From positions 3,100,001-3,164,000 of the forward strand of contig OY987250.1 of the NCBI GenBank assembly GCA_963920765.1: 64,000 nucleotides of DNA. The letters are read 5' to 3'. Of the stretch, positions 11,444-51,480 are shown one piece after another. The stretch's first letter is position 1, and the number at the start of each line of letters is the position of its first letter. The stretch comes from Ulota crispa (Eukaryota; Streptophyta; Bryopsida; Orthotrichales; Orthotrichaceae). The position numbers and the translations under genes were made by a program. The notes under the pieces were generated by a model. That model searched no databases. It had not been told where the DNA came from and saw only the letters and a program-made list of their open reading frames with translations.

Positions 11444-11540
11444 TGTAACACTTATTTCTAGCTGATTCAAACTTCTAAATACTAGTTGCAACCATATTTG
11501 GTATCATAGCTCCAGAGCCCTAGGGCCCTTCAGGGGTTAA
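11444..11540 (-). mobile_element. Right end of a TTAA MITE cut by the gap
   Basis: The reverse complement of this stretch matches the left part of the element at 5238-5470, ending in CCCTTCAGGGGTTAA. Its terminal TTAA (11537-11540) is shared with the next element, which starts at the same four bases. Confidence 0.6.
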
Positions 11541-12449
11541 CCCCTAAAACGTTTGGCTCATTTCTCACCAAAATGGCTCCAAAACTGCCATTTCTAGTAC
11601 AAGTACCAAATTTATAAAAAAAAAAAAACTTTATTTGACAAATGTAGTCGCAAGATCTTGTACTACACTAGTATCAAAATATGTGGAAAAATTTAGGAGT
11701 TTTCATGATCTAGATTGTTAAATATTTGGGTTTGAATTGACAAAAAGCCATTTTTGTCTTTGCAAAAATCCAGGCAGTTGCACTTCACGAGGTCATATTT
11801 GTATGAAAAAAACTCCAAAATTGTTGTAATTTTTGGATTTGTTCTTCAAAGCAAGTTGGGTACACACTTGAAATTTTCAAATCATTTGGAATTGTAAAAC
11901 AATAGTAAGTAAAAAGAAGTAGAGAATGATTCAAACCACTAAATTGTTAAGAATCTAATTATGGAAATGAAAAATTCCAATCCCAATGATTATAATGTTG
12001 TGATAAACAATCTACTTCTTTAGGTTTTGTTTTTTTTCTATAATATTGAAAATTGAGTAAATGAATGGACTTCAAAGTTTATTTTAGAGTAGAGAGTCCA
12101 TAACTGCCCACAAACAAAACCTCCTCATAACTTTCATTTCATTGATAAAAATGGAATGATTCAAAGCTTCCCAAGTATATATAAATCTAAAGAACCAATT
12201 TCAAAAAACAACTGAAAAAATGAAATTTTAAAAAAGCTTTTTGCCTGCCCGCCGAGCAAAGAAAATTGCATATCATGCAATAAGTTTTGAACCATGAAGT
12301 CAAAAGTTATGAAATTTGTTGGGCCTTAAAGCTACCCCTTGGACACATCATGTGAAAATTTCAAAGAAAAAAAATGAAAACCCCATTGGTAGTGCGTTGC
12401 CCAAAATTGCTATGTTGCCAAAAGAAAGTGTTCAATGCTTTAGGGGGGG
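11537..12449. mobile_element. TTAA element, 0.94-kb subtype (T10)
   Basis: Begins TTAACCCCTAAAACG and is related through its length to the elements at 14904-15853, 16769-17682, 18694-21349 and 21911-22849. For example, 12060-12230 matches the reverse complement of 15180-15310. The right end (ctttaggggg near 12445) has lost its TTAA. No coding capacity. Confidence 0.6.
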
Positions 12450-13656
12450 ATGCTAAATTGTGAGAAGGTTCCGTGAGCCATGAACCTAGATTTTTTGTCA
12501 AGATATTAATATCACCTATAAATTTGTACATAGGGCCTTAAAATTGTACATTATAAATGTATATCTTTTGAAAAACTTCCTAAATTTTAAAATTTCTATT
12601 GCTTTTGAGCTCAAAGTTGGTTCCCACACACAAAATTGTGGCTCACTACTCATGGGCTCAAAATTTTACGCTCACAAGTTAGAGTCGTCTTGTATGTAAA
12701 TACTAGCACTTTGTTAAATTTTGTAAAGGATCACTTCATTATCTCCAAGAAATACAAGCAATATATACCTGAAAATTATAAAAATGAATTTTATTATAAT
12801 TTGTATAGAAAGCATTTGCTTCCCTATCATTTGTAGTAAGTGAAGCGCAATTTTGGTTGAGATTTTTTTGCACAAAGAAATGTAATCCAATATATACATG
12901 TATATGTATGTATGTGTATGTATGTGTATGTATGTGTGTATATATGTGGGTATGTATATACATACATACATTTTCATATGCATGGACCACCTAAAAGCAT
13001 ATTGAGAGTGTGTCTATCTTTTTGTTTGTTCTAAAGTCAAGTCTATGAATATAAGCACAAGTGAAAAAAATGACCTAATTTGGTATAAGTAATATTTCAT
13101 GAAGGACACTTATTCTGATAAATTTCAATCTCTATTAGTTATTAGTTAGACTGAAATCAAACAAATGGTAGAATTAAAATTCAAGCTCCCATTAAACTCT
13201 TATTTTAAAAAACTTCAAATATCGTTTGTGATTTTTTTTTTTCTCATAAAAGAAATTAAGTAGATTTAGTTGCTTGGGTCATTCATGAGACCGCAGATGT
13301 TGAAATTTTGGTTCAAATAACCCAAAGATTTGATAGCCTTGACTCCTATTGTAAAGAGGACCTTTGAGTTTGGGGGCACAGTGGTTTAGAGTTGCCGTGC
13401 ATGAGGTGATGAGGGCAGTACAAACATTTCAAGGATATTAGTACCCCTGAGGCCCTGACACAGCAGTCAAGTGTTGTCACTGACATATTAGTCCCTCCAT
13501 CTTTTCAATAGTTTCCTCTTTACGCTTCCCACTGACTTAATTAAGACCTATTTGCACTAGGAGTCAAGGTCACCATAAACTTGGGATGGTTTGAAAAATG
13601 TTTTAGTCCAAGTGCCTTCATGCCTCATGAAAGGTCCCAAGCATTTGTTATAATAA
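12450..13656. other. AT-rich spacer with a TG/TA microsatellite
   Basis: No gene. At 12899-12975 there is an imperfect tgtatgtatg microsatellite that ends in tatacatacata, so it can fold on itself. The short open frames across it are repeat translations and are not called. Confidence 0.5.
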
Positions 13657-14003
13657 GGGGCGGTTCGCACCTCGTCCCACTAAATCTGAGAATTTGATTG
13701 GGGACTTGGGGCTTCACACTAAGTTCCAATTTTTATATCTAGAATGATAGTATTTTGATTACTTGGCAACACTTTTTGGAAAGTTTGAGACCAAAAAAGG
13801 TGGAAATGCACTCAAGGTTTGGGTTGGCCATTTTGCTAGACTCAAGTTTTAGCTCAAGTCTCACTAACATTTTTGTAAAGAGATGTTCTTGACTTTCTTT
13901 AGTGCCTTTTTTTTTTCCCTTGATAATCCAATGGAGTTGGAATATTGCATTGAGGTTGAACTTACACATATGGGATATGGGACATAGTGTGTATTGTGCT
14001 CAA
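13657..14003 (+). mobile_element. PIF/Harbinger-like element, degenerate copy
   Basis: The left end GGGGCGGTTCGCACCTCGTC follows a TAA triplet. The body is a diverged, uninterrupted relative of 36602-37842: both carry aaggtgga, a diverged ctcaagtc block and gactttctttagt in the same order. The right end (gacatagtgtgta) is decayed. It serves as an empty-site comparison for the nested insertion at 36828-37549. Confidence 0.5.
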
Positions 14004-14903
14004 GAGTATGAAGGGAATGTTTTTATTTTATGTCTAGTGGTTATAAGACTAAAAAGTTAAGGCCATACTTTTAAAATAGTGAAATTTTTAGAAAAGTCCA
14101 AATGAAGGACAAGATTGGAATGCAACTCCATTTTAATAAGCCCCCCCGCCAAAAGTAATTATTGAAGTAATGGTAGAATAACAAAATTTGACAATGCTCC
14201 TAGGGCTGCATGTTAGCTTTCTTGTACTTGGCACATCTAATTGTTGAAGTTGGAGCTTTGAACAAAGTTTCTCATTAGATATTTGAATATCTTTCAAAAA
14301 TTTGACCGTGCCTCCTAAGATAATGGCACAAGAGAGGTTGAAATGAGAAAAAATCGTTTGCAATTTATAACTTTGGTTAAAACTCAGTTAAAAGCCTAAA
14401 AATATATATACTTATAGTATGGAATGGAGAGGATAACAGAAATAGTTCTTTGATAAACCGGTTCAATACAGGAATTGACGGAAATCAACCAAAAAAACTC
14501 AAATGTTTCCAGGAACCTGGTGTGCATTGTCTTTCAGCATTTTCCTTTCGACAAACCGCCGTAGAAAACGGCGTCGTCTCTCCCAAGTCCCAAAGCAGCG
14601 CTTCAATCAAAAGACCACGAAACTACAAGGTAAGTAATAAGTGGAATCCAAAACACACCGTCTCCATTTAACGGAAAAGAAAAGCAAAGGAAAGAAACAA
14701 GCCACCGGCCATTGCACACACTCCGACAAGCGAGGGTTAAAAAATCTTCATAAATCATGAAAAATCGTCAGAGCATTCTCAATGCAACCGGCAAATAGGC
14801 CTGGTGTAGCAAGCCTGATTGTTTTCTAGGTAACTGATCATAATACAAAAATTACATGATTTGAAGGGCACAATTTTTCTTATTGTAAAACCACAATAAA
14901 TTT
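14004..14903. other. Spacer, no gene supported
   Basis: A 73-codon open frame at 14450-14671 lies in slightly GC-richer sequence but shows no domain and no splice-consistent continuation. Nothing else is seen. Confidence 0.35.
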
Positions 14904-15853
14904 TTAACACCATCTTCACCCGTAAAGGTCTAGGTGTCCCCCAGGGGACAGACGGATTTTGGGCATGTACTTATAGTTAATTTAGTTTTTGTGATTTTTT
15001 TAAATTTTTATGAAAGGTAGGGAATTCCAAGACCTACTCAGGCATCTAATTTTTTTTGTCATTTTGACATTTGACGAAGAAGTTATGCATGAATTTCTAC
15101 TGCCTGAGGGAAGGAGGGCAATCTAGGCAACCCAAAAACTTCATAAAATTTTGTGTTTTCTAAAAATAGAAATATGAAATTGGTTCTTTCAATTTTTTCA
15201 TATGTGAGAAGCGTTGAATCATTCAACTTCAATCAATGAGATGAAAGTTATGAGATGCTTTAGTTTGTGGGCAGTTATGGATTCTCTACTCTAAAATAAA
15301 CTTTGAAGTCCTTTATTTTCCACAATTTTCAATATTTTAGAAAAAAAAACTAAACCCAAGGAAGTAGATTGTTTATTACAACATTACCACCTTTGGGATT
15401 TGCATTTTTCATTTAAATAATTAAATTCTTAACTATTTAGTGATTTGACTCATTCTCTACTTTTTACTTACTATTCTTCCCCAAGTGTTCTATAGTTGCA
15501 ATTGATTTGAAAATTCTCCCACACATACCTAACTTGGTCTTCTACATGACAAAGGTAGTCCTCAGCTTTGTGCAGAGTAATTTTTTTCATGTAAGAGTGG
15601 TCAAAGGCTTTTGAAATTTACTAATAGCAAGGAAAAAAACATTTTCCCTTCACCTCAAATGTAAATATCTCCCTCCTCTCCATCTACAATGACCTATTTT
15701 TTTTCCCACAAGTACCTCTTCTATTCTAAGGCAAGATCCTACCGGTGGATTTGCAAAACAAACTTTATATCCTACTTTTCTACTCATTCCCCCCAAAGTG
15801 GCAGTTAATAGTGACTTCCACTAGAAAAAAGGGCTTGGGTCTTTAGGGGTTAA
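14904..15853. mobile_element. TTAA element, 0.94-kb subtype (T5)
   Basis: The left end TTAACACC is partly scrambled but is followed by the subtype's typical gtcccccaggggacag and ggattttgggcatgtac. The right end is GGGTCTTTAGGGGTTAA. The last 40 bp are tandemly duplicated with their flank (15837-15876 and 15877-15916), giving two copies of the element terminus. Confidence 0.7.
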
Positions 15854-15916
15854 GTGAATTGGAAAAAAGCAATTTTGGGTCTTTAGGGGTTAAGTGAATT
15901 GGAATAAAGCAATTTT
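15837..15916. repeat. 40-bp tandem duplication containing an element end
   Basis: Two nearly identical 40-mers beginning gggtctttaggggttaag sit head to tail. Each contains the complete TTAA terminus of the adjacent element plus flanking DNA, so the duplication happened after insertion. Confidence 0.85.
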
Positions 15917-16020
15917 GGGACTTTTGGGTTTTGTATATTTTAAAGTGTACTTAGAGAATCTCCTTTCAAAATTGGGAGGCGACATTATCTCCCTCAGGGC
16001 GCTAAGGGATTAATATTGCG

Positions 16021-16768: not shown

Positions 16769-17682
16769 TTAACCTCTAAAGCCATGTTGTCCCTCGGGGG
16801 ACAAATGGAATTTTGGGCAGGTACCTACGGCCTTGATTTTTGTCTTGATTTTTTAAAACTTTTTTGAAGATTGAAAAATACATTAGCTTTTGGGGAATAT
16901 AAATTTTATTCCAATCTATGCCCACAAGCAAAAGTTATGCCCACATAAGCAAAAATATATGGAGATTGGGCAGCACAAAAAATTTGCAAAAACTTCAAAA
17001 AAAATCAATTTTTTGTTCTCATAGGATATAGTTTTTTCTACATCTGAAGCTTTGATTCATTCCATTTGGACTAGTTATGAGAAAGTTATGGACAATCTTG
17101 TTTTTTGGGCAATTCAAGCATCTTCTTGAAAAAATAACTTACAAACTTCATTTTTGAATGCAAGTTTAACATTTTTCCAAAGAGAAATTGTTGGGAAGGG
17201 TGAAGTTGGTTTTCTAGAAAAATCTTATCATTGGGATTATTGCGTTTCAATTCCATTGCAGGGTTATTAACAATTTAAATTTTTCTTCAAGCTTGTACCT
17301 TGTTCTACCTAATGTTTTTTGAAGAATGAAAACTAAGTATTTTTTTGTTTTGATTTTTTTCCAAAGATTCTCAACTCAATTTTCCACCATAAAAAATAAA
17401 CCTCAAAATTGTGTGGGGCAAAACATTAAGTAAAAAAATTCAATGTCAAATAATCTAGTCATGCAAGGTCCAAAAATGTTTGTTTTTAACACTAAATATC
17501 TTACAATCTATGCGGTTAAAGTTTTTGAATAATTTTCCCACATTTTTATACTAGCCTAGTACAAGATCCTATGGGTAGATATGCAAAACAACCGGTTTTC
17601 AAATTACTTTTCTCTTTGCTATAGAAATGGCAATTTTGAATGTCTTTTGACAAAATAAAGGCCTTAGGGTTTTAGGGGTTAA
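16769..17682. mobile_element. TTAA element, 0.94-kb subtype, in the left foldback arm (T4)
   Basis: TTAA occurs at 16769-16772 and 17679-17682. The left end TTAACCTCTAAAGCCATG continues into gtccctcgggggacaaatgg, and the right end is AGGGTTTTAGGGGTTAA. The opposite arm of the host foldback lacks it and reads gttcctcaaagaaa at the equivalent point. Confidence 0.85.
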
Positions 17683-17696
17683 AGAAACAAAAATTT

Positions 17697-18537: not shown

Positions 18538-19007
18538 ACTTTTTTTTTTCTTTGAGGAACTTCTAAGCAATGTATGGAGATTGGAGAGAGCCAAGAAGCA
18601 ACTGAAAGTTGGCCAAATGAAATGTGAAAAAAAAACAAGTGAAATTGAAATCAATTGGTTAAAAACCAACTTAATTTTTTATTTTCTGGTGCATTAACCC
18701 CTAAAGGACCAACTATCCCCTCGAGAGACAAATGGACCTCAAGCACGTACCTATGACTAAACTAGTTTTTATAAAATTTTGAAGATTTTGAGGTTGGTGG
18801 AGAATTCAAAGATGTACATGCACATCTAAATTTCCTTCATTCCGACATTTATTGAAGAAGTTATGCATAGATTTCTGAAAAACAAGGGAGGGTGGGCAAT
18901 TTAGGTAGCCCAAAAAACTTTAAAAAAAATTTCATTTAAAAAAATAAAAAATCAGAAATTGTTTCTTTAGATTATTATATATCTGGAATTGAATCATTCA
19001 ATTCTAA

Positions 19008-20727
19008 TTAACCCCTAAAGGACCAAGGGTGCTTTTTGAGAAAAAATCTCAAAAACTGCCAACTTTTAGTGCATTGCCCAAAATTGAAATTAAAAACCTT
19101 TTTTCTCTATTTTAACCATACAAAAGTGTGCAAAACAGATAAAAGAATATGTGCAAAAAAAAGTCAGCCCATTCGACCACGAGGATTGTAAGATTATAAT
19201 GTTTAAAGTGAGAAAAACCATTTTTATAATTCCTGCAAAACAAGGTCAGCAGACTTTGACCCTTCTTAGAGTAAATTCTTTGCTCTACACAAATTTGATC
19301 TTTTTGACCATTCACAAGTATATGATGTTAGGTTCACTCATGAAAATTTTCAAATGCAAAAATACAACCTAGCTTGCTCTAAATCATCCTCCAATGCAAA
19401 GAGGTTAAGCAAATTGGCAACACATTAGTCATTCTTTCATGATTTCTTGTGTAATGAGGGAGTATTTTATTTGAAATTTGAATGGTGAAAAATTGGAAAC
19501 AAACATTTGGAATATATGAAAAAAGTTTCAAGAGCTAAGTGATTGCAAGAATGACCTGTCCTGCTCATTGTTCCCTTCACCTCCTGCGGATGGTTTTTGG
19601 ATCCTATCTTTTGCGGTTTTAGTTATTTTGACCTAAAATTTCAAAGTAAGGTGAACATGAAAGTTATTGACATTCTCTATTTTTTTTGTTTTTTTAAAAT
19701 TTGTTTTACTATTTATAAGTGGACCTCGATTGCATGTCTACCTTGGCAATTTTGGTGGGTTTTAGTACTATTTTGGATTGAAAAAAGCAAATCTCATGCC
19801 ACAAATTAGGGAAGTTGTTCATTATAAAGCATTACATAGATCTATAGATCCGTTTTACAAAACTCAAAAAACTCTGCCCTGCACATTGTTTCAAAGTAGG
19901 CATCCTTTCTCCCTCCATTGGTGAAAGACAAAAACCTTCCTCCAAAAAGCACTTGCATCAGTTCAAGCTAATGAGAGAGATAAAAAATGGTCTTATTTTA
20001 TTTTATTTTTTTGAATTTTTTTTATTATTTTCTAAAAAGCAATAAGGAAAATTGTCTTTTTATTGGTAATTTTTGTCCCTCTATTTTTGTGCATTACTTT
20101 TAGAATAATTTTTTTTCTAGTTCTGAATTTTCACAAGTATGCTATTTTAAGTGCTTTACAAATTATCCATATTCTATTTTATTTAAAATATATATATTTC
20201 AAAAGCTCATGGTACTACCTAGTACTACCAATTTTAAGGGTGTTTGAGACAAAACTGGCAAGTCATTCTTGCAACTACCTAGCTTTGGATTTATAGATTG
20301 GAAAACAATAGAGCTTGAAGTTAGAGGTTTTTTTTTTTTTTTTTATTCTTTTTCTTGAAACTACCCAAACATATTAGCAAAGTTTGACTCCCTTCAAATT
20401 GTGATGTGAGAGCTCAAATTTTTTTTTGACAATTGTACACCATGTTTTTTTTTTAGTAACATACTTGCCAAATTTCAAAAGTTGATGAGAGTTTTAGCCT
20501 AATATTCTCCAAAGATGCCCAAATTGCCCAAGCTGCCCAATTTCTTTTGGGCAACACAACTTTTGAATTGGGCATCCAATTGAGGAAAAATTTACATTTC
20601 CAATTAGGGAATACATATTTGCACCTTGTGTAACAATTTTGAGAAAATCAAATAAAATTGACTCCATATGACCATACCCGAGTTCTCAAGTGGCTGTTGA
20701 ACAACCACTTGGTCCTTTAGGGGTTAA
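19008..20727. mobile_element. TTAA element, second subtype, nested in T2 (T3)
   Basis: TTAA occurs at 19008-19011 and 20724-20727, with ends TTAACCCCTAAAGGACCA and TGGTCCTTTAGGGGTTAA. Removing it restores attcaattctaattaatgagtg, which matches the uninterrupted sister element (reverse complement near 22540-22555). Its body is unrelated to the 0.94-kb subtype but matches 34437-35389. It carries a further 740-bp insertion. Confidence 0.9.
19539..20278. mobile_element. 740-bp inverted-repeat element inside T3
   Basis: The left end GTGATTGCAAGAATGACCTG pairs with the right end read backwards (GTAGTTGCAAGAATGACTTG). The related TTAA element at 34437-35389 lacks it. A second copy, with GATTGCAAGAAACACTTG ends, is at 36828-37549. 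The bodies share ccccttcacctc/cccttcacctcctgcg and tttttagtactattttgg. Confidence 0.75.
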
Positions 20728-21676
20728 TGAGTGAGAAGTTTTAGTTTGCAAGTAGGTATGGGACTCCCAAACCTCCATTCCTTTTGCCCATTGAAAATTT
20801 TGGTGCTTTAACTTTTTTTTGACTTTTTATTTCCAAGTTGTAGTAGACTAAGATTCCTTCATTTCCTTAGTTTTCACCATTTGGATCAAAGTGATTCAAA
20901 TTTCTCAATTTTACATAAATCCCCCAATTTTGCCTAGTGTATTTGCAAATTTCATGTCCTTACGGCATTGCAAGATTTTACAAAGTATGATTTACACCTC
21001 CAATTCATTTGAATATTCTCCTATACTTACCTAACTTGGTCTTCTACATGGACAAAATAAACCTCAACTTTGCGTAGAGCAATTTTTTTGATGTAGGAGC
21101 GGTCAAAGGCTTCTAAATTTTTTTTGCAGTAAGAAAAAACTTTTTTTTGCACTTCAGATGTCAATATCTCACTCCTCTAAATCTAGAATGAGCTGTTTTT
21201 TTCCCAAAAGTACCTCCCATAGTCTAGGGCAAGATCCTATGATTAAACATTCAAAAAATCTTATTTTCCTATCTTTGTACTCATTCCCCCAAAAGTGGCA
21301 GTTTTCAATGATTTTCACATAAATATGGGCTTGGTCTTTTAGGGATTAAAAAGCCGGATGAAAATGAGAAATGCAAGATTTTAGAGAAGAAGCTCAAAAT
21401 CTGGGAGGGGGGGATTGTGGTAGATTTAGCAAAAAGTGGGGCGGATTTAGCAATTCCCTACTAGCAAGTTGCAACGTTGCAACTCCTGTAGTGGGTGTCA
21501 AACTTGGCCATTGCGCACCCCATAACTTTGGCTCAGACCACCTCATAACTCAACCACTTTTGCTAGTTATCAAGTATGATAACTTTGTCACCCACCTCTA
21601 GAAGTGAGTGACATCTCTAACTAGTTATGGCCTCTCTTTTTAAAAGTTATCAAGTGATCTTGTAGCTCTCTTTTAG

Positions 21677-21910
21677 AGAGAGAGTGTGATACTAAAGAGG
21701 GAGGGTGCAATATTGAAGAGGGAGGGTGCGACATTAAAGATGGAGGGTGTGATATTAAAGAAGGTGTGACATTAAAGAGGGAGGGTGTGATATTAAAGAA
21801 GGTGTGACATTAAAGAGGGAGGGTGTGATATTAAAGAAGGTGTGACATTAAAGAGGGAGGGTGTGATATTAAAGAGGGAGGGTGTGACATTAAAGAGGGA
21901 GAGTGTGATA
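21677..21910 (+). repeat. 21-bp satellite, left arm
   Basis: About a dozen units of gagggagggtgtgatattaaa, alternating gatatt/gacatt, with several shortened units that begin gaaggtgtgac. Each unit contains a TTAA. Confidence 0.9.
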
Positions 21911-22849
21911 TTAACCCCCAAAGGACCAAGCCCTTTTTTCAATGAAAGTTACTGAAAATTGCCACTTTTGGGGGAGTGAGTAGAAAGATAGGAAAAAGAA
22001 TTATTTTTGGAGATTCAACCGTAAGATGTTGCCCTAGACTATGGGAGGTACTTGTGGGAAAAAAAATCTGCTCATTCTAGATGTAGAGGAGTGAGATATT
22101 GACTTTTGAAGTGAAAAAAAAAGTTTTTTTCCTTGCTACCCAAAAATTTCAGAAGCCTTTGATTGCCCCTAAATCAAAAAAATGCTCTACGCAAAGTTGA
22201 GGTTTATTTTTTCCATGTAGAAGACCAAATTAGGGAAGTGTGGGAGAATTTTCAAATGAATTGGAGGTGTGAATCATACTTTGTAAAATCTTGCAATGCC
22301 GTAAGGCCATGAAATTTGCAAATACACTAGGCAAAATCAAAGGATTTATGCAAAATTGAGAAATATGAATAATGTTGATCCAAATGGTGAAGAACAAGGA
22401 ATCTTAGTCTACTACAACAAGGAATAAAAAAGTCAAAAAATAAATTCACAAAGAGCACAAAAAAGTAAAGTACCAAAGGCAAAAGGAATGGAGGTATGGG
22501 AGTCTTGTACCTGCCCGCAAACTAAAACTTTTCACTCATAAATCAAAATTGAATGATTCAAAGCTCCCCACATATGTATAAATCTAGAGAACCAATTTCA
22601 GATTTTTATTTTGAAAAAAATATATTTTTAAAAAAGTTTTTGGCTTCCCAATCTCGCATTTTTTTAGAAATTCATGCAAAACTTCTTCAATAAATGTCGG
22701 AATGAAGGAAAAATTAGATGCCCACGGAGATCTTTGAATTCCCCATCATCAATAAAAGTTCCAAAAAATCACGCAAAGTAGTTTAGCCATAGGTACATGC
22801 CCAAAATCCCATTTGTCCCCCGTAAGGACAATGGTCCTTTAGGGGTTAA
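21911..22849. mobile_element. TTAA element, 0.94-kb subtype, inside the satellite (T1)
   Basis: TTAA occurs at 21911-21914 and 22846-22849, with ends TTAACCCCCAAAGGACCA and TGGTCCTTTAGGGGTTAA. Excising it and keeping one TTAA restores a satellite unit in exact phase (gtgatattaaagagggaggg). It is the best-preserved copy of the subtype and the reference for its length. No open frame of note. Confidence 0.92.
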
Positions 22850-22927
22850 AGAGGGAGGGTGTGACATTTCTAATCATACTACTAAAATCTCAATTACCTC
22901 TGTAATATCAAACCCTAACCTATTTAA

Positions 22928-23246
22928 TATCACACACTCACTCTTTAATGTCACACCCTCCCTCTTTAATATCACATCCTCCCTCTTTAATGTCACACCC
23001 TCCCTCTTTAATGTCACACCCTCCCTCTTTAATGTCACACCCTCCCTCTTTAATATCACATCCTCCCTCTTTAATATCACACCCTCCCTCATTAATATCA
23101 CACCCTCCCTCTTTAATGTCACACCCTCCCTCTTTAATATCACATCCTCCCTCTTTAATGTCACACCCTCCCTTTTTAATATCACACCCTCCCTCATTAA
23201 TATCACACCCTCCCTCTTTAATGTCACACCCTCCCTTGTTAGTATC
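22928..23246 (-). repeat. 21-bp satellite, right arm
   Basis: About 15 units of the same satellite in inverse orientation (tttaatgtcacaccctccct). It produces long spurious open frames in several reading frames, because 21 is a multiple of 3. Confidence 0.92.
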
Positions 23247-23671
23247 ACACATCGATTTTTGTGACATTATCCCATACATAAGTTATGAAGACTTACTCAA
23301 ATTTTTATCAAATAGTTTTGTGAAACTTTGAAAAGGTGATAACTTTGAAAAATTTGGTTCAGCCACCACCCACTAACTTTACACAAAAATCTGCACAAAG
23401 TTATCCTCCAAAAATGCCAGGTTTGACACCCACTAGTGAGTCCAGTCCAGTGTGGAAAGGTACCGTGGCGGCTCATGATGCTTCATCTGGTCCTCTGCAG
23501 TTGTCAATAACAGAATACGGTACTACGACTACCCCCAGTCCCCCACCAGTCCACCACCAGTGGATCGAGGCGCCTTACAGGAGTTTCCACATCCCAAGGA
23601 ATCCACCAGAGTCCAGAACCGTCACCACCTACGCCGGCTGGCTAGCTAGCTTAGGTTTTAGCTACTACTGA

Positions 23672-24303: not shown

Positions 24304-25107
24304 GCCGGAAGAAGGGCACAGTGTGTCTAGCGAGTGGAGAGCCATTTCCATGTGAAGGAAGAGAAAGAGAGCCAGCCAGGGCTTGTCGAGGATCCCGCTG
24401 CTGCTACACTAGCTCTGGTGGGGGCAGAGAAGCGAGATTCCGGTGGAGTGCGAAAAGGAAGCAGGCAGGGGGGGACAGGGGAGATCCGGAGATGTCGTAC
24501 GTAGTAGTGACAACTCCTGTTTTCTGGTCTGGTCACTGGTGAGAGATTGCGAGCATTGCGCGCACGGGAATGAGTCTTGGTCGGCTTGACCAGGCGGGCA
24601 CCGGGCTTCTCGCGAGGGACACCTCTTTGGCTTCCCACTGTCTACGACTTTCACAGTCAGCGTGCATGTCGCCTTCTTTGAATCCATTATAGAATGGGAT
24701 TCGTAGCGTGCGGGTCATCGGTGGTAGTCATGTCGTAGTAAGCCTGCGCGGAATACCAGCAACAGCAGCAGCAGCAGCAGCTGGAGTGAGTGGCGCGAGT
24801 AGTATTTTGTGGTGGTGTGAGTGGCGACGTCGATCGAGTGCGAATTGAGATACGTCCTTAGCAGCGCGTGACATAGCGTAATCCACACTGGCAGCTGACA
24901 GATTTTCTTTTTTCTTTGGGGCATCGTCATCAATCGCCTGCATGCCGGGCGCGCGCTTTCATGTTGGGGAGTGAGTGTACTTGCACTTGCAATTCTTGCG
25001 AGACGTCGTTGTGAGTGGAGTGGAGTAGAGAGGATTAAGTTATTGGATTATTTGGGAGAGCGCAAATCTGGGTTTGCGAGGCGAGCGAGCGAGTACATTA
25101 GCCAGCT

Positions 25108-28100
25108 ATGGCGCCGTACGCGCACAATGCAGCCGATCTGGCGGCGGTACTGTCCAGCACCGACACGACGAAGCGAAACGCGAGCCTGCTGGCGGCGCTG
25201 GCCGCGGCCAAGTCGCAGCCGCTGCCGCCGATGTTCGTGGAGGCCGAGGACCAGCGGCCGGTGCTGGACCTGGAGGCGGCTTCGACGACCAGCAGCGTGA
25301 TTCCTGTCGTCGACATGTCGCGCCTGCATTCCAACGACCCGGCGGCGCGCGCGGCGCTCGTGACGGACGTGGCCACGGCGTGTGAGCGATTCGGGTTCTT
25401 CCAAGTGGTGAACCACGGCGTGGAGGAGGCTCTGATTCAGCGGTGCGAAGCGGAAGCGCATGAGATGTTCGCGCTTCCCTTGGAGGTGAAAGAGCGCGTA
25501 CATCGCCCGCCACAAACGTCGTTCGGCTATGGCGCTAATACCTGGGTGAACCAGGCGGTTATGCACTGGGCCGAAAGTTTTCACATGCAATTGCATCCCA
25601 AGTCCAACATCCGTGAATTCTCGGGCAAACTCTTCGCCGAGTCCGATCCTTCCCAATTCAGGTACCCCTCTCTGCTCCTTTCCCTCTCCCATTATTCACT
25701 ACTCCCTCTTTCCCTCTAAAAAAAGCTCCATATTAGACACATTTCTTGTTACCAGTATACAAAAATAAAAATAAAAACTCCGTTTTGCTGATTTCAAATG
25801 TTGAGAAAGCGTTTATCATGTTTCGATGATCTCATGCTTAGGGGCAAGTGAAGCGATTAGAGAGATTAGAGAGATTAGAGAGAGCATGCCTCTCTTAGCA
25901 AGCTTGGGCCTTGCTCATATGAGGTACCATTGTTACTAGTAACTTTTAAATCATCAATAACAAGGAGCTAGTAGCACGCACAAATATGATACTTTTCATA
26001 TATAATTTGGGTGCCCAAAGGGCAACATCAAAAGCTGGAGATTTTGCATACATTTGGGTAGATGGTATATTAATTCTAGAATGCATGTGACACTAACATA
26101 AAGACTAAAATAATGAGGAGATGTCAGCATTCACAAACTATGCACAAATATGATACCTTTTTTGCATGAAATTTGGGTGCCTAAATGACAACATCAAAGC
26201 TGAAGGTTTTACATACATTTGATAAATGATATATTGATTCTAGATTGCATGTGTCACTAGCACAAAGGCTAAAAACCACAGTTAATCCTTCACAAGAAAG
26301 CTTTTGGGGGGACAGAGGGAGTACTCAATAGTGCATGCCCAGAGACGAGAATGTTGACAGTCTCTCCAATGCCGATATTTGTTACCGCGGTGGTCGCTCT
26401 AGAGACCCCCCTGGTTTTTGTTAGACTTGTGTGTGTGAACCAATTGACCTGTTGTTTGCAGTTCGACGGTGGAGGAGTACATGGGGCAGATCGAGAAGCT
26501 GGCGCGGGAGCTGCTGGAGCTGCTGACGGAGGGGTTGGGGCTGGAGGCGACGCGGTTCAACCACTACGTGGAGCAGGAGCGCATGATGTCGATGCGGTTC
26601 AATCTGTACCCGCCGTGCCCGCAACCGGAGCTGGCCATCGGGCTGCGCGCGCACACCGACCCGCACCTGCTCACCATTTTGCACCAGGACCACGTCGCCG
26701 GCCTGCAAGTGCACATCGACGAGGAGTGGATCACGGTGAAGCCGCGCCCCGACTGCTTCGTCGTCAACGTAGGCGACCTTTTCCAGGTCTGCACTTCCAC
26801 CACTCCCTTGCCTCAAATCCTGGAATCCATCCCTGTCTTTGACTTGCGTTTTTCAATCCACAATATCCCCTTAACGGCTTAACCCTTAACCCCTAACGGA
26901 CGAGGCAACCCTTTGCGACCAGTACAATACGGTGTATTTTTCTTGGAGTGCATTCACACCTTTATTACATTTGAGATCAACAAAGAAGTTAGAATATAGA
27001 TCAATGTTGTTCTAGTGAGGTAGTCAAGATCACGAATTAAAATTTTTTGTTGGCAACAAATGCCAGTTACACAGTAGTGTACATACTATGTATTATAATA
27101 GCCTTGTCCTTTAAGGGCTAAATGACCATAGGGCATAATATATATGCTGGCGTATAATTGTCTTTTGCTACCATTAAGAAATTTTAATTTGGGATTTCAA
27201 GTAACTCACTAGAATTGCATTGATCTATTCTCCAACTTCTTTGTTGATCTCAAATGTAGTAGAGGTGTGGATCCATTCCAAATACAAGAAAAATATCTTA
27301 TGTTGTATTGGTCGCAAAGGGCTTTTCAGTCGTTTAAGAGTTAAAAGGCCACATTCTAAACATAATCTGAAATGAAGTGGTTTGATTTGCATTGTTAGTT
27401 GCAAAATATAGGTTATGAGTTAGTAAACCCATTTAGCTTAACAAGCTAAATGAAGATCAAATGCCCGTGTAGATTCCATCGCATGCCCCCATCCTCATGC
27501 GTCCCATCCCCATGCCTGCCAATAAAGTTAAAGAAAACTTAGTTACAAAAAATTCAGTTATCAATTGATTGACCACCACGGACACAATTTGAAATTGCAT
27601 TCTATTATATGTATATAGAGATATTTTAGACACGGCACAACCTTAAGCGAATTAATGAGATCTGCGCGAATTAATGAGATCTGCTTTGTGGGTTACTAAT
27701 TGCACTAAAACTCCACATAGTGAACTCTTTTTATCCTCACCACTTAGAATCCCAATTTTTTTCTTGTAACATAGTTCGATTTCGTATTACAATCAGGGAT
27801 TCTTCGATAGAAAATGCCGTTTTAAAAACAAAGAGATTTGAGTAGTTCATTTTAAACACAAAACCTTATCCCCGAAGGATGTTGCTGTTTTGTATATGGA
27901 CTCCCAAGTTGTATATGGATGGGGTATTTGGATAGCACATGAATTTTATTGGAGTTGTAAGTTTCAAGCCAAGTCATAGACATACTACTTGTCAACCAGA
28001 ATTTTTTGGGGAATTTTTAACATTTGTCATATAATCATTTCTTTAAGTACATACTAAATGGTTCTTGTACAAATACAAACACTTTTGGTAGGCAACATCC

Positions 28101-31838: not shown

Positions 31839-32664
31839 TCCAGTGCCCCTGAACCCCTCAAACCCTCAATCCTTGACCCTTGAACCCTTTAATCTGTAAA
31901 CTCCTTAATTCTTTAATCCCTAAACGCTTAATTTGTAAGAGAACTAGAGAGCCAGCATTCTCTCGGGGTTAACCCCTAAACTACAAAAGTTTGTTCGACA
32001 GTCAGTTGAATGTTTGGGTAGGTTCCTATGAAATCAATTTTTGGTGGATGTTTTTGAAAATTGGAGACAAGGTGCACACAATGAACACCTTTGTGGTGAA
32101 AAAAAAATGATCTCATATCAGATGCTTGAGTAAAAAGTTATGCTACTCAAAAAAATTTGGGCACCTTGGATAATCTGAACATCTTTGAAGAATCTTATGC
32201 TAAAACTCTCATCAACTCAAGAAACTGCACAAAAGGTTACATTAGATCGGAGTTATGTCATTTTTTAGTATGTAAAACGGGATACAACTATACAAGTAAA
32301 AAATGCTCCTATTTTACAGGTTTTAATTGAACCTCTACCACATCCCAAGACTTCTAAGGCAACAAAGACTAAATATAAAACCCAATTTTCCAGACTTTGT
32401 CTTGCGATGGTAAATATCTTATTTTGTGCGTTTTATTTCAAGTAAAATTCGAAAGTTAAAAAGCACAACTCCTGGTTGGATCCGTTGCACGGCTTTATGA
32501 AAGTGTGGCCCTAAAAAGTGAGGAATTGCCTCGAGTTTCTACCCCCTTTCCAAGGGCCATCTGAACCCATTATGCAAGGGACCATGCAAGAGGGTCATTG
32601 GGGAGAGGGCCAGGTCGACCCCAACCAGATGCATTTGAGGGAGACAGTTTTGAAGTTTTCTTTA

Positions 32665-34100: not shown

Positions 34101-34436
34101 TTAACCTCGAAAGGACCAATGTTCTGTATGAAGGACAAATGGGATTTTGGGCATGTATTTATATATTTTGAAACAATATGGAAGATGGGGAATTCAAAAA
34201 TCTGTGTGGGCATCTAAATTTTTCTTCATTCCAACATTTATAGAAGAAATTATGCATAAATGTCTAGAAAACAAGGAAAGGCGGATGGTTTGAGCAACCC
34301 AAATTTTTTTTTAGAAACTATATTTTTTAAATAAAATTTTGAAATTGGTTCTTCAGATTTAGGTAGAGTCCAAGTAATCATTGGAGCAAATGTGAGATTG
34401 CTTATGTGTGAGACCCTTAGCTTGCATAAATGTCCC
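34101..34436. mobile_element. Fragment of a 0.94-kb TTAA element
   Basis: Begins TTAACCTCGAAAGGACCAAT, then gaaggacaaatgggattttg, the left end of the 0.94-kb subtype. Homology fades near 34390 and is not resumed after the element that follows, so it is truncated. Confidence 0.65.
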
Positions 34437-35389
34437 TTAACCCCTAAAACTATGAGGGTGTTTTTTGAGAAAAAAATCTTATACTGCCAACTTTTAGTGC
34501 AGTCCTCAGAATTGAAAAAAAAAAAAAAAGTTTAATTTAACTGCATGAAAGTATGTCAAACAAATAAATTAATGGGAGCAAAAATATCAGCCCACTTTAC
34601 CTTGTGGATTGTAAAATTTCAACATTTGAAGTGAGAAAAACAATTTTTTTATTCCTGCAAAACAAGGTTAGCAAACTTCAAACCCTCTTGGAGTAGATTT
34701 TTTGCTCTACACTAAAATGAGGTTTTTAACCATTCATAAGTGTATGATGTTGGGTTTACTCTTAAAAAATTTCAGAAGCAAACATGAAATCTAGCTTTTT
34801 CAATCTAAATCACCATGCAATGCAAGGAGGCTAAGTGAATTGGCAATGTAGTAGTTATTCTTTCATGATTTTTTGTGCAATGAGGAAGTTGTTTATTGGA
34901 AATCTAATTAGTGAAAATTTAGAGACAAACATTTGGAATACGTGATAAAAGTTTCAAGAACTATACGCTTATATATTGCATGATAATAGGGCTTGAAGTT
35001 AAAAGATTTTGTTTTTCTTTTAGAAACCACCTTGACATAGTTAACAAAGTTTGAATCCTTTTAGAATGTGATTTGAGAGCTCAATCTTTTTTTTGACAAT
35101 GGTATACCATATTTCATTAGTACATACATGCCAAGTTTCTAAAGGTGATGAGAGTTTTAGCATAAGATTCTCCAAAGGTGACCAAATTGCAAGTTGCCCA
35201 AATTCTTTCAAGCACCATAACTTTAGAATTGGGCATTTGATTGGAGAAAAATTTACATTTGCACTTGGTGGATAAATATTTATATCTTGTGTAACAATTT
35301 TGAGAACACCCAAAAAAGTTTGATTTTGTATGACCGTAACCAATTTCTCAAGTGTCCATTGAATGGGCACTTAGTCTTTTAGGGGATAA
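34437..35389. mobile_element. TTAA element, second subtype (T6)
   Basis: 953 bp, starting TTAACCCCTAAAACTATG and ending TTAGTCTTTTAGGGGATAA (target copy decayed). It matches T3 (19008-20727) through its length except for T3's 740-bp insertion, so it is the empty-site copy. No coding capacity. Confidence 0.82.
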
Positions 35390-36827: not shown

Positions 36828-37549
36828 ATGATTGCAAGAAACACTTGTACTATTTCTTGTCCCCTTCACCTCTTGCGAGTGCTTTCTGGCTTGTAACTTT
36901 TGCACAGCAAGTTCTTTTGAGCTGAAATTTCAGAAGAAGGTACATATCATAGTTACAAACCTTCCATAATTTTTGCAATTTTTTTAAAATTATTTTACTA
37001 TTTTTAAACAGCCCCCAAATAAGTGTCTATCTTGGCCATTTTGGGGATTTTTAGTACTATTTTGGGTCCCAAAAAGTTTTTTTAGGGCCACAAATTAGGG
37101 ATGTTGTTTATGGAGTATGGTTACATGCATTTGTAGAAGGGTTTTGCAAAATTATAAATTCCATGGCATCTACATTGTCTCAAAGTGGGCATCCTATCTC
37201 CCTCATTGGCAAAATACAAAGAAATTCCTCAGCAAAGCAATTGTACCATGTGAATGTGTTTAATAGTTTCTCAAATGTCCAGTTTTTATTTTATTTTTTG
37301 AATTATTTTACTATTTTTTAAAAATCAAGTAAGAAATTAGCTTTGGTCGATGATTTTGTTTTGCTCATAACTTTTAGAATAAATTTTTTTTAGGTTTGAA
37401 TTTTCATGAGTATGCTATTTTAAGTGCTTTACAAATTTTCCATATTTTATTTTATTTTTAAAAAATTATTCCAAAAGCTTGGTAATACTACTAGTACTAC
37501 GAGTACTAAGGGTGTTTGAGGCAAAACAGAGAAGTGTTTTTGCAACTAC
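36828..37549. mobile_element. 722-bp inverted-repeat element, second copy
   Basis: The ends ATGATTGCAAGAAACACTTG and (reverse complement) GTAGTTGCAAAAACACTTC match the family at 19539-20278. The host copy at 13657-14003 lacks it. Confidence 0.65.
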
Positions 37550-37663
37550 CTTGTTCATGACTTTCTTTAGTACTCCTTTTTACCCTTTGCTCTTGATAAC
37601 TTACAGAGTTTTGCATTGAAGTGGGACATGTAGAGATAAAACATGGAACATAACATTGTACTA

Positions 37664-44206: not shown

Positions 44207-44216
44207 CTCTACAATA

Positions 44217-45849: not shown

Positions 45850-46523
45850 CTAGTTTAGGTACCCATTGTACCAATGGGTGCAACAAAAATATCCTTCCAA
45901 TAAACAAATTGTTCAATAATAATCTTATCACAAAATGTAGTCAATCAAAAAAAAATTCAATTATTTAACTCACAAATGCTAGCAACCTAATTCAAAGTAA
46001 GCCTCATTGTAAACCACATTACGCACGTACCCCTCCCTCCCATGTTGGTTCTGTGCTAGAAGGACATGCACATTGTTGGGCGACGCGGCATGCGAGAACG
46101 CAACATACAATTCTCTCGGCCAATCAAAACGCTCATGTATTATTTTATCTTTATATGAGTATAAGCACCCGCTGTGCCAATTGAGACAATAAGAATATCT
46201 TTGCAATTAGCAAATTCTAAACTAGCAATCTTATCACAAACTATGGTCATTGCAAAAATTTAAACTATAAGTGACCAATTAACTTACAAACACCATCAAC
46301 TTGATTCAAAGTAAAGCCTCAATGTAAACCACTTTATGCATGTCTCTCTTCACTATATGCATTCTAAAACCCTTAAACCCTAATCAACAACCAAGGCTTT
46401 AAAAAGCATTAAAAAATAAGCAATAAAAATTCAAAAACACCAAAAAAGAAACTCACATGGCCAACTGCCTTACCTCATCCTTGTGTGAGAGGTATGATAT
46501 ATATGAGATTCATTTATGACTTT

Positions 46524-46571
<48 letters not shown>

Positions 46572-47920
46572 AAGATTCATTTATAGCCTTTACATTTTTT
46601 TACCTTTTTTCCCAAGTATTACAACTTTTTCTCGGCCAAACATAATGCTCATGTATTCTTTTATATACAAGTGTATGTACCCGTTGTACAAACAAAGGCA
46701 ATAGGAATATCCTTGTAATAAAAAGATTATGGGTTAGCAATCTTATCACAAATTATGGTCAATTTAAAAATTTAAGTCATGAGTGATTGGTTAACCCTTT
46801 AAAGACCACACACAATTTCCCAAAATCCACTAGAAACCGGGCCAATAAAATCAGATGTACATTTGAAACAAATTTGGACCCAATTTGAATAATCCAACCG
46901 TACAAATGTAAAGGACACCTTGTTTGTTATAATGTATCAAAATTTCAACTAGATTTATCATTGGAGGTGAAATATTATAATGATTGAGTGAGCCGTATAT
47001 GGAAAATCTCTAGTTTTTCATGCTTGTGTGGCTTTGAATGTTAATGCTTCATGCAAGCTTTGCTTGAGAAGAGCCTTTCATTTCTAGAAAGCAGGGTTTC
47101 CCATTTTCTTTGCTATTTTAAAATGGTTCTACAAGAAATTTGATAATTGTTACGGAAAATCTGATTGGTAAAAGCAATCAAGAATTGGCCTTAAATGAAG
47201 GAAGATTGTTTAAAAAAAAAATTTATAGCATCATTTCAATGGATTCTCAAATAATACAATTGTACTACCGTATAGAGAAACAATACAAGCGTGTTCCTTG
47301 AGCAATTTGAATTTTTTAGGATTGCACAATTGAAATGTGACATTCTTCTTAGATGTTTGATGTATTGTGTTGTTGCTTTGATCCATCTATGACCAAATAT
47401 GGATATGTATTTTGAGGCCATGATGTATAAACATCATTATTTATCAACTCACATGTCCGATTCCATTGTTGTTTCTTGGGTTGGATGCAAAATTCTTGTG
47501 ATCACAAGTGTTCTTGAAGATAATTTTCCAAATTGTTGAGCAATTTTATTGTACAGGCCAAAAACTACTCTCCCGAACCAAAATATGGTTCGGTGGTCTT
47601 TGAAGGGTTAACTCACAAACGCCACTAACTTGATTCAAAGTAAAGCCTCAATGTAAACCACTTTATGCATGTACCCCTCTCTCCACTCTATGCACCCCTT
47701 TCTTCCTTGTAAAAGGACAAACAGGTCATTGGAAGTTGCACCATGACTCTCTCTCAGTTAATCTCTATTCTTGGTTGTGTATTATATTCTTAGTTATATT
47801 CTTCTTTATATAGAAAAGGTTGTATTTTATTATTTATAATGATAAGGTCACTGATAGTTGCACTTCAACTTTCTCTCGGCCGATCAAAATGCTCATATAT
47901 TCTTTTATATGTAAAGATGA
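45850..47920 (-). mobile_element. Tandem Helitron-like array (three units)
   Basis: Read on the minus strand, the left edge is a hairpin (ACCCATTG/CAATGGGT, 45861-45879), seven bases, then CTAG, then T: the 3' terminus expected for a Helitron. Units start at about 45850, 46154 and 46668. Each carries cttatcacaaa, gcctca-tgtaaaccac and, at its right end, ctcggcc-atcaaaa-gctcat. No Rep/helicase is encoded. Unit 2 has an (AT)n microsatellite at 46527-46567 and unit 3 a TTAA element. Confidence 0.6.
46791..47611. mobile_element. TTAA element, 821 bp, in Helitron-like unit 3 (T7)
   Basis: TTAA occurs at 46791-46794 and 47608-47611, with ends TTAACCCTTTAAAGACCAC and TGGTCTTTGAAGGGTTAA. Excision gives gtgattggttaactcacaaac, which corresponds to gtgaccaattaacttacaaac in unit 2 (about 46270). 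No coding capacity. Confidence 0.9.
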
Positions 47921-48570
47921 CAATAAAGCATTTCTTTTACTTTGCATCTTAATTCTTTGGTATAATCTCTTTTTAAAATTTTGACATAATAATGTATTTT
48001 TTGTGTATTTGACATCAACTAAAAACAAATTTTTGTACATTTGTGAATGAAAGAAATGGGATAGAATTTGATAGTTTAGTCTTGTTTTTTAATACGCAAT
48101 CAGTAAAAGTAAGGGACTTGAAATTTAAATCATAATCAAATGAAGGGACTTGAATCTTAAATTAAAATCATATGAAGGGTTAAGTTTAAAAACTTGAATT
48201 TTTTTATTCTTAAAATTTCCTTCGAATTTGTATGTAATTATATAAAATAGAAATTTATATTCTCTTGTGCATGGATGATATAGATTTGATTTCACAACTT
48301 TATAGAAAAAAGTAAAATGGTAAATGAATGAAAAGACATTTGAAACGACATAGAACTCCATTTGCATTTGAAGATATACTCTTTTTACCTTGAGACAAAT
48401 GAAAGGTTTTCTCAGAAGACTAAACAAAAATTTCCTTAGATATATTTGCAAATTTTTGAATACTCAAAATGTTGTAATCAAGATTGAGTGATATGTAGTT
48501 AGTACAATGGTAATACGGTCCTATAATTCAAAACCTAGATTAGATGTTGAAATACTTAATTTGATTGACC

Positions 48571-49302
48571 ATGTCAAAATTTGAAACCTTGGATAAGGGA
48601 ACTTCAAAATCTCCCTTAAGAGATGGCTTTTTGGATGAAATTGACAAAATGAGCTATGACAATTCCAAACTTGTAATAAGACAATGTATTTGCAACCTCA
48701 AGGATGCAACCAGTCTACTAAATGGTAATAATACAATCAATAGTAAGACTTATGCTAATCATACTATCAAAAAAGAAAGAATCAATGAAAATTATGAAAC
48801 TTTAATCAAACAAATTCAAAATTGTTATTTAAAAGGTGAATCTTCAAATCCCTTAAAGGTAAATGATTTAATTAGCCTTGAGAATTTGCTATATCTTAGT
48901 AATAAAGATGAAGAAAACACCAATGTCACAAAAAACACAAAAAACACTCGGGTAGAGGTTTCAGAATTAAAGCCTTATGAATCATTGAATTGTAGTGTAT
49001 TTGATAAAAATTTAAAAAAAAAAATTGATTGTGAAGAAAATGTTTTGAAGAATTATCAAAAACAAAACAAAAAATATTTAAAAACAATTGATGACTTGCG
49101 TGAAAAAATAAGGACAAGAACCCAACAATGGCAAGTAACTTTGAGCCTCTATCTCAAAGAAAAATATGAACACGGTCAAGGTCTTACAACACTTGAAAAA
49201 ATTGCTAAAAAACAATATAGAGAATTTCATGAAGAGTTAAAAAACAAAAAAACACATGAAATGAGTGGAAAAACTAGTAGAGATTCTTGTATTATCATTT
49301 GA
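48571..49302 (+). CDS. Orphan AT-rich ORF, Lys/Asn-rich, CaaX-like C-terminus
   Basis: A single 243-codon frame from ATG to TGA in very AT-rich DNA, where stop codons should be frequent. The product is rich in Lys, Asn and Glu. It has a predicted coiled-coil-like second half (about residues 155-232) and ends in SCIII, which fits a CaaX prenylation box and would suggest membrane attachment. No signal peptide or membrane segment. I recognise no family. Codon use is A/T-ending, unlike the nearby G/C-rich dioxygenase. It has no introns and lies 650 bp from the Helitron-like array. It could be an orphan plant gene, cargo of a mobile element or a transferred gene. Confidence 0.6.
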   Translation: MSKFETLDKGTSKSPLRDGFLDEIDKMSYDNSKLVIRQCICNLKDATSLLNGNNTINSKTYANHTIKKERINENYETLIKQIQNCYLKGESSNPLKVNDLISLENLLYLSNKDEENTNVTKNTKNTRVEVSELKPYESLNCSVFDKNLKKKIDCEENVLKNYQKQNKKYLKTIDDLREKIRTRTQQWQVTLSLYLKEKYEHGQGLTTLEKIAKKQYREFHEELKNKKTHEMSGKTSRDSCIII

Positions 49303-51246
49303 ATATTAAATCAAGTTTAGATAGAGATATGTATTATTAATTTAATCAAAGATTACTGAAAGGCTCTTTACTTAAATACAAATTGAATGAAGTTTTTAAA
49401 GAATTTTTGATAGGGAAGGTTTGTAATGCCTTTTTGAGACAATTTTGGAAATAGGTTGATTACATTGTGTAATTAATCAAACAATTGTAGCCAATCAATA
49501 AGTACTAGTTCAACTTTATAGTAGTACTATAGTGTGGTAGTACTAAAAATTGTGATTCCAACCTATGTCAAATGCTTTCTAATTGCCTTCAATTTTTTAA
49601 CATGCCATTGGTACTCTTGAAGGAATTAGGATTATTTCTTTTCTGCCTTATGACCTGATTTTTGTTTCTAGGCTTTAGACTATCCATAATTAGTTGAATA
49701 TGGCATTAGAGAAAATGAGAACAAACAATAAAGTGAGTCTCAAACAACTTTCTATAAACTTGAAATCTCTTGTAATAATTGGTTTTTATGAAAGAGCTTT
49801 ATATTGTCTCATAGCACTTGGAGTGATATTATGAAACACTTAACAATTTAGCTCAAAAATTTAATTGAAAAGACTCCTACAACTAATAAGTTTACTATGT
49901 ATGTGTATTATAACATCTTGCAAAAACTTGAAACATTAATAGCACCTTGTTGTTTTGTCAAAAAAAAAGAAAAAAAAAGTCATAGTTGTTAAAGCACCTA
50001 TACTAGTAATTGTAATTTATTTATAATTTATTGAATAACTCAATACTCTCTTTTTCCTATGAATACTAAGTACTACTAGTATTTTCCATACATTTCTTCA
50101 AACTGCAAATACTAGTATTTTACATAAGTTTTAAAATGATTTATTACACATCTTCATGAGCTTTGTCTTCAATCATCATACAACTATTACTTGCTATTTG
50201 CTACATATGTATAGTTGTTATACTTGGTAATGAAAACGAAAAACAAATAATTATCATCAATATTATCAAAAAATAAAAAACCGTACCTTTAAGTTCAAAA
50301 TTGGGACTTTTGTTTAAGCACAAACATATTGTTAATTTTGATTTACGATAAATTGCACAAAAAATGCAACAAGAAAAAAAACATGTATCCAATTGCAAAG
50401 CAAACAAATAAAATTTATGAAAAAATAAATATATTAAGAATACAAGATTGAGCATGGGTTGCATTATAAAACAACTAATGTGATTGTGCTCAAAAACAAA
50501 GAATGAAAAATTTAACGTATTGATCATAGGTAGCAATATTTGATTTCTTAGAATAAATTTTTTAATTTGTAATCATATAAATTAAGAAAAAAAATTGCAA
50601 CTACTTTGTAAACCAACAAAATAAATCAAAACCATAAATAAAGATCTAATTAGAAGCAACTATAATTGAAAAGCATGTATAATGGACAATTGTGATGCTT
50701 CTTAATTCTAACATCCCTAAGATTTGGGGACTTAAAAATACATCCCAAAATGTAAATTCTTGGAGTTGAATATTTCTAATTACAGAAAGATGTATTAATG
50801 CAATCAAGACAAAGACATTATAAGCGAACTTTTGAAAAAATAAATAAATTATGAATTAATTGTTGATATAAAGATCATAGGATTTGACCACTCCACAATT
50901 TAGCTCTGATTTTCTGATCCCGAAATTATATTTGGAGTTATTGGAGGTCTTTGTTTATGTAACTTGCCTCGATTTGATCACGTTGATTATTTTTAATAAT
51001 CAAAATTTCCTCGGTTTGACCACTTTATATAACCCATGAAGGCCGATCAATAAAAAGCCAAATATTTCTTTGGAATTGTCAGAAGTTACTTGGACAAGAA
51101 ATTACTTAAATGTACCATGATTGTGATCAAATTATGATATTTAGAGAGCTTGAAAGACTTAAAGATAGTTTTATTTGTTGTCACTTTACCAAAGCTATAA
51201 TTCTTTTTTAAGAAGTCAATATTCATAGTAATTACATTCGAACAAT
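49303..51246. other. AT-rich intergenic stretch
   Basis: No gene or clear element. Very AT-rich, with short open frames only. Confidence 0.4.
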
Positions 51247-51480
51247 TTAACCCTTGCATGACCATAAGACATATGATATATGCTGATGTATGATTGTCAT
51301 TAGCTACTAGTAAGAAACTTTAATTTGGGATCTCAAGTAGCACACTAGAACCGCATTGATATATTCTTCAACTTCTTTGTTAGTCTCAAATATAGTAGAG
51401 ATGTGGATCCATTACAAATATAAGAAAAATATCCCATATTGTATTAGCCGCAAAGGGCCTCTCAGTTGTTTAAAGGTTAA
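51247..51480 (+). mobile_element. TTAA MITE, 230-bp subtype (M3d)
   Basis: TTAA occurs at 51247-51250 and 51477-51480, with ends TTAACCCTTGCATGACC and TTGTTTAAAGGTTAA. Same family as 27118-27344 and 36372-36601 (gtagagatgtggatccatta, ccgcaaagggc). Confidence 0.85.

Follow-up and report, generated by a model that had tools for sequence, protein, structure and literature searches.

Abundant TTAA-bounded miniature elements, very probably of the piggyBac superfamily, in the genome of a moss

The window analysed here is a stretch of 64,000 nucleotides of the Ulota crispa genome (C9:3100001-3164000; assembly of 274.8 Mb, about 271 Mb of it in 11 large contigs), and it carries a series of repeats that begin and end with TTAA. 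These repeats are very probably non-autonomous members of the piggyBac superfamily, i.e. miniature inverted-repeat transposable elements (MITEs), which in this moss have reached many thousands of copies. An earlier note, made from the letters of the window only, had hesitated between the piggyBac and Kolobok superfamilies; the presence of piggyBac transposase genes in the same genome, their association with ends of the same kind and the 5'-CCC termini now allow piggyBac to be chosen with good confidence. Stretches fetched from this genome for comparison are designated by L numbers (L001, L008, L019 and so on).

TTAA-anchored ends in the window and in the genome

The termini of the elements read 5'-CCC..GGG-3' after the TTAA, and the end motif is directly observed. 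TTAA-anchored matches to TTAACCCYNNANNGNCCA with up to 3 mismatches number 40 in the window; 30 Markov simulations gave 11.7 on average and never more than 20. Inverted TTAACC ends can be paired 23 times (several pairings having an end in common) versus 0, 0, 0, 0, 3, 0, 0, 0, 0 and 0 times in ten simulations. The genome-wide search for the ends that had been proposed earlier gave 33,777 matches to the 18-bp end TTAACCCCTAAAGGACCA at up to 2 mismatches (16,847 + 16,930) with 6 + 6 for the reversed control, and 12,804 + 12,902 exact matches to the degenerate end TTAACCCYNNANNGNCCA with 6 + 5 for its control; the two counts overlap and refer to ends, not to elements. The class of TTAA-bounded elements with inverted ends described in the earlier note is thus real, while its figure of at least 13 elements could not be fully reproduced: paired ends or homology support 11 elements in the window, 2 of which are a single end or a fragment.

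True boundaries of the 939-bp family

The 939-bp element of the window (21911-22849) gave 8,717 first-look candidates genome-wide. In the 40 copies scored, which are the best of these candidates, include the window copy and are biased to whole copies, the alignment covers exactly positions 1-939 in 34 cases and all but 9 or fewer bases in the other 6; one further row was a fragment. The 39 copies other than that of the window are 87-92% identical to it and are located on C1 to C11; the compared copies differ by roughly 10%. The flanks were checked for 10 of the 39, for the copy of the window and for a copy in L027; in all 12 cases TTAA was found on both sides, between unrelated flanks. The mean pairwise identity of these 12 copies is 0.78 and 0.81 inside the two ends and 0.27 and 0.28 outside. 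Since the identity drops abruptly at the TTAA, the ends of the family are its true ends.

The window is AT-rich and TTAA is common, so the ends could in principle be a low-complexity coincidence, or else internal parts of a larger repeat. The abrupt change at the TTAA in 12 of 12 copies, the preservation of the 40 best copies to within 9 bases of full length and the near-empty reversed control refute this for the 939-bp family, and for the elements in general we consider it practically negligible. Neither flanks devoid of TTAA nor ends buried in a larger repeat, the two observations that the earlier note had named as fatal to its proposal, were encountered in this family.

Transposase genes and transposase-bearing elements

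As had been noted before, the window itself displays no transposase: none was detected there by profile and tblastn searches (best E 0.53). In the genome, the scoring of 116 out of 528 candidates gave at least 120 matches to the piggyBac family PF13843; the best has E 1.3e-73, and all the listed ones lie above the cut-off. None of 14 control genomes was matched. Most of the listed matches carry in-frame stops. One translated transposase matches the solved structures of piggyBat (9c0f, 2.6e-24) and piggyBac (6x67, 7.6e-20), and its stretches DEIM, TDNFF and GVDIVDQ (DE, DN and GVDxxDQ), which we take to hold the catalytic aspartates, align with both proteins. Homology to the DDD transposases is therefore directly observed: DDE_Tnp_1_7 with the DDD residues lies inside the transposase-bearing elements, and was not detected in the MITEs of the window.

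Twenty PF13843 loci out of the at least 120 matches were fetched as 9.9-kb stretches, and the boundaries of one transposase-bearing family are directly observed among them. Between unrelated flanks, L019:1863-6890 and L028:1897-6923 share 90.5% identity over 5,029 bp, and the bounds of the homology are TTAACCCCTCATCGCCAA and TTAACCCTTCATTGCCAA of L019, i.e. ends of the TTAACCC type, the first end of L028 reading TTCA. A third copy, on C8, spans positions 1-5027 of 5,028 at 88% with TTAA at both ends, so that the L019-type element is present in three 5.0-kb copies on three chromosomes. An outer end pair of L019 was rejected as the boundary, which the copy comparison sets at 1863-6890, and the end pairs of L034 and L021 were rejected as boundaries of autonomous elements; their ends match MITE ends (the L034 pair ends in a MITE, and L021 looks alike).

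The inward end pairs at the 20 loci had a mean score of 7.88 compared to 5.42 in permuted flank pairings (p 0.00035); pairs scoring at least 12 were found at 7 of the 20 true loci versus 61 of 380 permuted ones (p 0.0097), and inward ends outnumbered outward ends by 50 to 25. The permutation test supports a tie between the ends and the transposases but falls short of proof, some of the pairs being MITE ends. The search proposed in the earlier note, for a DDD transposase between identical ends, thus succeeded in part: piggyBac transposases do lie within the same end motif, but at the 20 loci no transposase-bearing copy was found that has both GGACCA ends and the subterminal sequence of the MITEs.

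Two side observations concern the transposase genes. At L035:4250-5938 (C1:1180709-1181995) a piggyBac-type transposase gene consists of two stop-free halves in which the DDD stretches are present; the halves are separated by a GT..AG gap, intron-like by eye, and paired ends at the usual distance are lacking. This gene could be one adopted by the host. At C7:18203169-18224137 and again at C2:36765124-36780554, two transposase fragments with the same score lie in opposite orientation at a distance of about 14-20 kb from each other, which suggests inverted duplications.

The cysteine-rich domain and the palindrome at one end

A cysteine-rich (zinc-domain) motif is directly observed downstream of the catalytic domain in 7 of the 20 loci, while upstream controls of twice the length gave 0 of 20. 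In the piggyBac element of Trichoplusia ni (T. ni), the left end has at bp 17-33 a palindrome to which a dimer of this domain binds, as described in the accessible text of PMC7351741. The complementarity of bp 17-22 with bp 28-33 was scored in the moss ends, with a cut-off of at least 4 of 6 pairs; the palindrome is known for T. ni piggyBac and is not required of every member of the superfamily.

Of the nine 5' ends on the transposase side, 7 have a palindrome centred at bp 25; it was found in a single one of the nine 3' ends, and among the 69 other ends, most of them of MITEs, 22 have it. The rate at control centres was 4.2%. Its position is directly observed as the highest mean pairing over all centres: at centre 25.0 it reaches 4.11 for the 5' ends (next best 2.56) and 2.68 for the other ends (next best 2.46, at centre 15.0). 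The combined p of a free hairpin search was 2.5e-6 for the 5' ends and 0.81 for the 3' ends. The letters of the palindrome vary (CGCC...GGCG in L026, GGAC...GTCC in L019, GGTC...GACC in L031); its position and its pairing do not. By analogy with T. ni piggyBac, the cysteine-rich domain of the moss transposases may bind this palindrome.

Elements of the window and their empty sites

The following features were recognised in the window:

10556-11190, unstranded: 635-bp TTAA-bounded element; empty site with TTAA in L008
14915-15853, minus strand: decayed copy of the 939-bp family, 939-bp span, first end mutated to TTCA
16769-17682, unstranded: 914-bp element, with relatives lacking the insertion at window 18613-18499 and in L001
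18694-21349, minus strand: element of the 939-bp family interrupted by 19008-20727; target relatives at window 16688-16568 and in L001
19008-20727, unstranded: element nested inside 18694-21349, ends identical over 20 bp
20691-20707, minus strand: palindrome in which 5 of 6 pairs form, counted from the right end at bp 17-33
21911-22849, unstranded: 939-bp MITE, reference of its family, located in a 21-bp tandem array
26886-27344, unstranded: 459-bp element with long inverted ends, adjoining an exon-like part of the gene for a 2OG-Fe(II) dioxygenase
31969-32217, unstranded: single end of an element of the 19008 type
34101-34361, minus strand: end fragment of an element of the 939-bp family
34437-35389, unstranded: 953-bp copy of the 19008 family without the inner insertion, last end mutated (TTAT)
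46791-47611, unstranded: 821-bp member of the 916-bp family with an internal deletion; empty site at window 46223-46342
47575-47591, minus strand: palindrome in which all 6 of 6 pairs form, counted from the right end at bp 17-33, at the position of the piggyBac cysteine-rich-domain site

The elements can be grouped into families. The 939-bp family is represented by 14915-15853, 18694-21349, 21911-22849 and the fragment at 34101, the 19008 family by 19008-20727, 34437-35389 and the end at 31969, and the 916-bp family, found in L024, by 46791-47611. The element 18694-21349 owes its length to the insertion of 19008-20727, which is itself lengthened by the insertion of a different repeat, about 740 bp long (about 19540-20280).

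Uninterrupted relatives had been claimed for five insertions, and all five were recovered: a relative spanning the junction was found with 400-bp flanks for four of them, and for the fifth (21911-22849) with 60-bp flanks, because this element lies inside the tandem array, other units of which read through the site. Three of the five are imperfect in the exact letters of the site. The relatives listed for 19008-20727 read TTGA, TTTA or another variant, none of them TTAA; those of 18694-21349 have 4 extra bases beside the junction; and for 16769-17682 the relative in the window reads TCAA, while those in L001 read TTAA. In a wider search, 26 candidate pairs were compared in 286,164 bases (the window plus the fetched loci, not a random sample), and 6 had a spanning relative, one of which (L032) aligns badly and one other has the 4-base gap just mentioned. 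Among the transposase-bearing elements, L031:1915-6939 (5,025 bp) splits one unit of a tandem array, and the neighbouring units read through; in one of them the site is a single TTAA with two bases added, in another it is CTAA. TTAA duplication, a mark of piggyBac membership, is therefore directly observed in the empty sites of the window MITEs; it is clear at L031 and weak at L024, and is matched by TTAA at both ends of the 12 copies of the 939-bp family.

Several other observations were made in the same stretch. The repeat of about 740 bp has different inverted ends (TTGCAAGAATGAC) and constitutes a second family, present at 19540-20280 inside the 19008 element and at 36829-37551. The 21-bp tandem array hit by the 939-bp MITE extends over 21680-23270 with a unit near TTAAAGAGGGAGGGTGTGACA, and almost all of its units contain a TTAA. 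The gene for a 2OG-Fe(II) dioxygenase (DIOX_N / 2OG-Fe(II) oxygenase), with at least two exon-like stretches, occupies 25102-26882; the element 26886-27344 follows directly after its second stretch, and the gene may go on past the element or be cut by it. Two TTAA ends at 5238-11540, 6.3 kb apart, form a pair with inverted repeats about 56 bp long; the stretch between them shows no trace of a transposase, and they perhaps belong to two separate elements.

Origin of the DNA

That the DNA came from a contaminant or a symbiont, and not from a land plant, is regarded as highly improbable. The listed copies of both the 939-bp family and the transposase are located on the large contigs C1-C11, and the same assembly contains a plastid contig, C157, the PsaA and PsaB proteins of which match best the chains 8htu, 6l35 and 7ksq, which we take to be structures of the moss Physcomitrium; compared to the best score, chain 9lut falls short by about 35-38 bits and 7wfd, presumably of Arabidopsis, by about 81-82. 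Plastid gene fragments are dispersed over C1-C10, and the dioxygenase gene of the window is of what we assume to be a plant type. From the plastid proteins the host is taken as a moss. As a separate observation, the 46 PsaA/PsaB match rows outside C157, all on C1-C10, represent many insertions of plastid DNA into nuclear chromosomes.

Discussion

Duplication of TTAA is by itself compatible with Kolobok and piggyBac alike, and the MITEs might belong to a Kolobok lineage with which the piggyBac genes of the genome have nothing to do; that no autonomous partner of the dominant MITE family was found among the fetched loci would agree with this reading too. According to the accessible part of PMC9587614, Kolobok elements share the TTAA duplication but differ in the superfamily of their transposase and in their termini, which are 5'-RR..YY-3'; the ends described here are 5'-CCC..GGG-3' and begin with YY. 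The same end motif bounds the piggyBac transposase elements, and the piggyBac-type palindrome at bp 25 is present in MITE ends. The THAP domain may serve as a partial proxy for the Kolobok transposase, and a search for the THAP family PF05485 gave 0 matches in the genome; the 14 control genomes gave 0 as well, and therefore this search says nothing on Kolobok. In view of the termini, the shared end motif and the palindrome, a Kolobok origin of the MITEs appears very unlikely.

A number of observations weigh against the piggyBac assignment. For the dominant MITEs, those with GGACCA ends, no autonomous partner was found: among the 20 transposase loci fetched there is no transposase-bearing copy that combines these ends with subterminal sequence of the 939 or the 19008 type. 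At 9 of the 20 loci no end pair scores 10 or more, and at 13 of them the zinc-domain motif was not detected. For 7 of the 9 transposase-bearing pairs tested no empty-site relative was found in the sequence compared, and that of L024:1896-6997 (in L036, 77.5%) is weak, with only 23 bases left of the site and TTAG at the site itself. The palindrome at bp 25 is lacking in 2 of the nine 5' ends (L024 and L020); moreover, these nine ends were picked from the end scan and not blindly, only that of L019 is confirmed by copy comparison, that of L034 has no true partner, and the 69 other ends include related copies and are not independent.

Assuming the piggyBac assignment, the mode of movement would be the one known for piggyBac. 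A DDD transposase would recognise the terminal repeat and, via its C-terminal cysteine-rich domain, the palindrome at bp 17-33 of one end; the element would be cut out through the TTAA hairpin route, and its reinsertion at another TTAA would duplicate that TTAA. The transposase would be supplied by the elements of about 5-6 kb that are dispersed over the chromosomes; of those listed, the majority are now broken by stops. We infer that the MITEs were moved by transposases of this piggyBac kind, and excision of the moss elements would presumably be seamless.

The ends of T. ni piggyBac start with CCC, as in the moss elements. The likeness to the T. ni element (6x67, 6x68) extends to the TTAA target and its duplication, the DDD transposase, the cysteine-rich C-terminal domain and the one-end palindrome at bp 17-33, as far as these are set out in the accessible text of PMC7351741. 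Unlike it, the moss elements have a plant host and share an inverted end that is about 18 bp long and closes in GNCCA; the elements with a transposase measure about 5-6 kb, the MITE families are very large, most of the transposases listed are broken, and the letters of the palindrome differ among lineages at a fixed position. The best sequence match to a moss transposase among solved structures is piggyBat of Myotis lucifugus, an element with a different host and copy number.

The earlier note held such elements to be unusual for a land plant, and the accessible part of PMC12732532 calls plant occurrences of piggyBac occasional. In the annotation of the fern Ceratopteris, 1,230 entries are labelled piggyBac (122,417 bases, 0.00% of the genome), and so the label is used in a land plant as here, while no elements are described in the accessible part of that report (PMC6890710). 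Among the literature matches listed (titles and abstract starts, open-licence PMC literature) none describes native piggyBac elements in a moss; PMC10619864 was discarded as a piggyBac report, the word there being 'piggybacking'. The system, piggyBac together with large families of MITEs, is thus a known superfamily in an unusual host, a land plant, and the host, the scale and the palindrome of variable letters at a fixed position look new.

These findings suggest that moss repeats with TTAACCC ends should be checked as piggyBac instead of being left as unknown; DNA transposons reportedly make up 23.68% of the assembly of the moss Pohlia nutans (accessible part of PMC9247546), and the contribution of piggyBac MITEs to this fraction is worth checking. 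The abundance of piggyBac in a moss also raises the question of the route by which it reached mosses. PiggyBac is a workhorse of genome engineering known best from animals; the tens of thousands of piggyBac-type ends and more than 100 transposase matches present here offer a natural set for the comparative study of end recognition.

A broader proposal, for and against which we see about equal grounds, is that piggyBac is a major class of DNA transposons in this land-plant lineage, with many transposase lineages each having a one-end zinc-domain palindrome at bp 25 that changes its letters and keeps its position and pairing, and with MITEs that have inherited this design. If this is true, the palindrome would be the record of a protein and its DNA site co-evolving in many families of a single genome.

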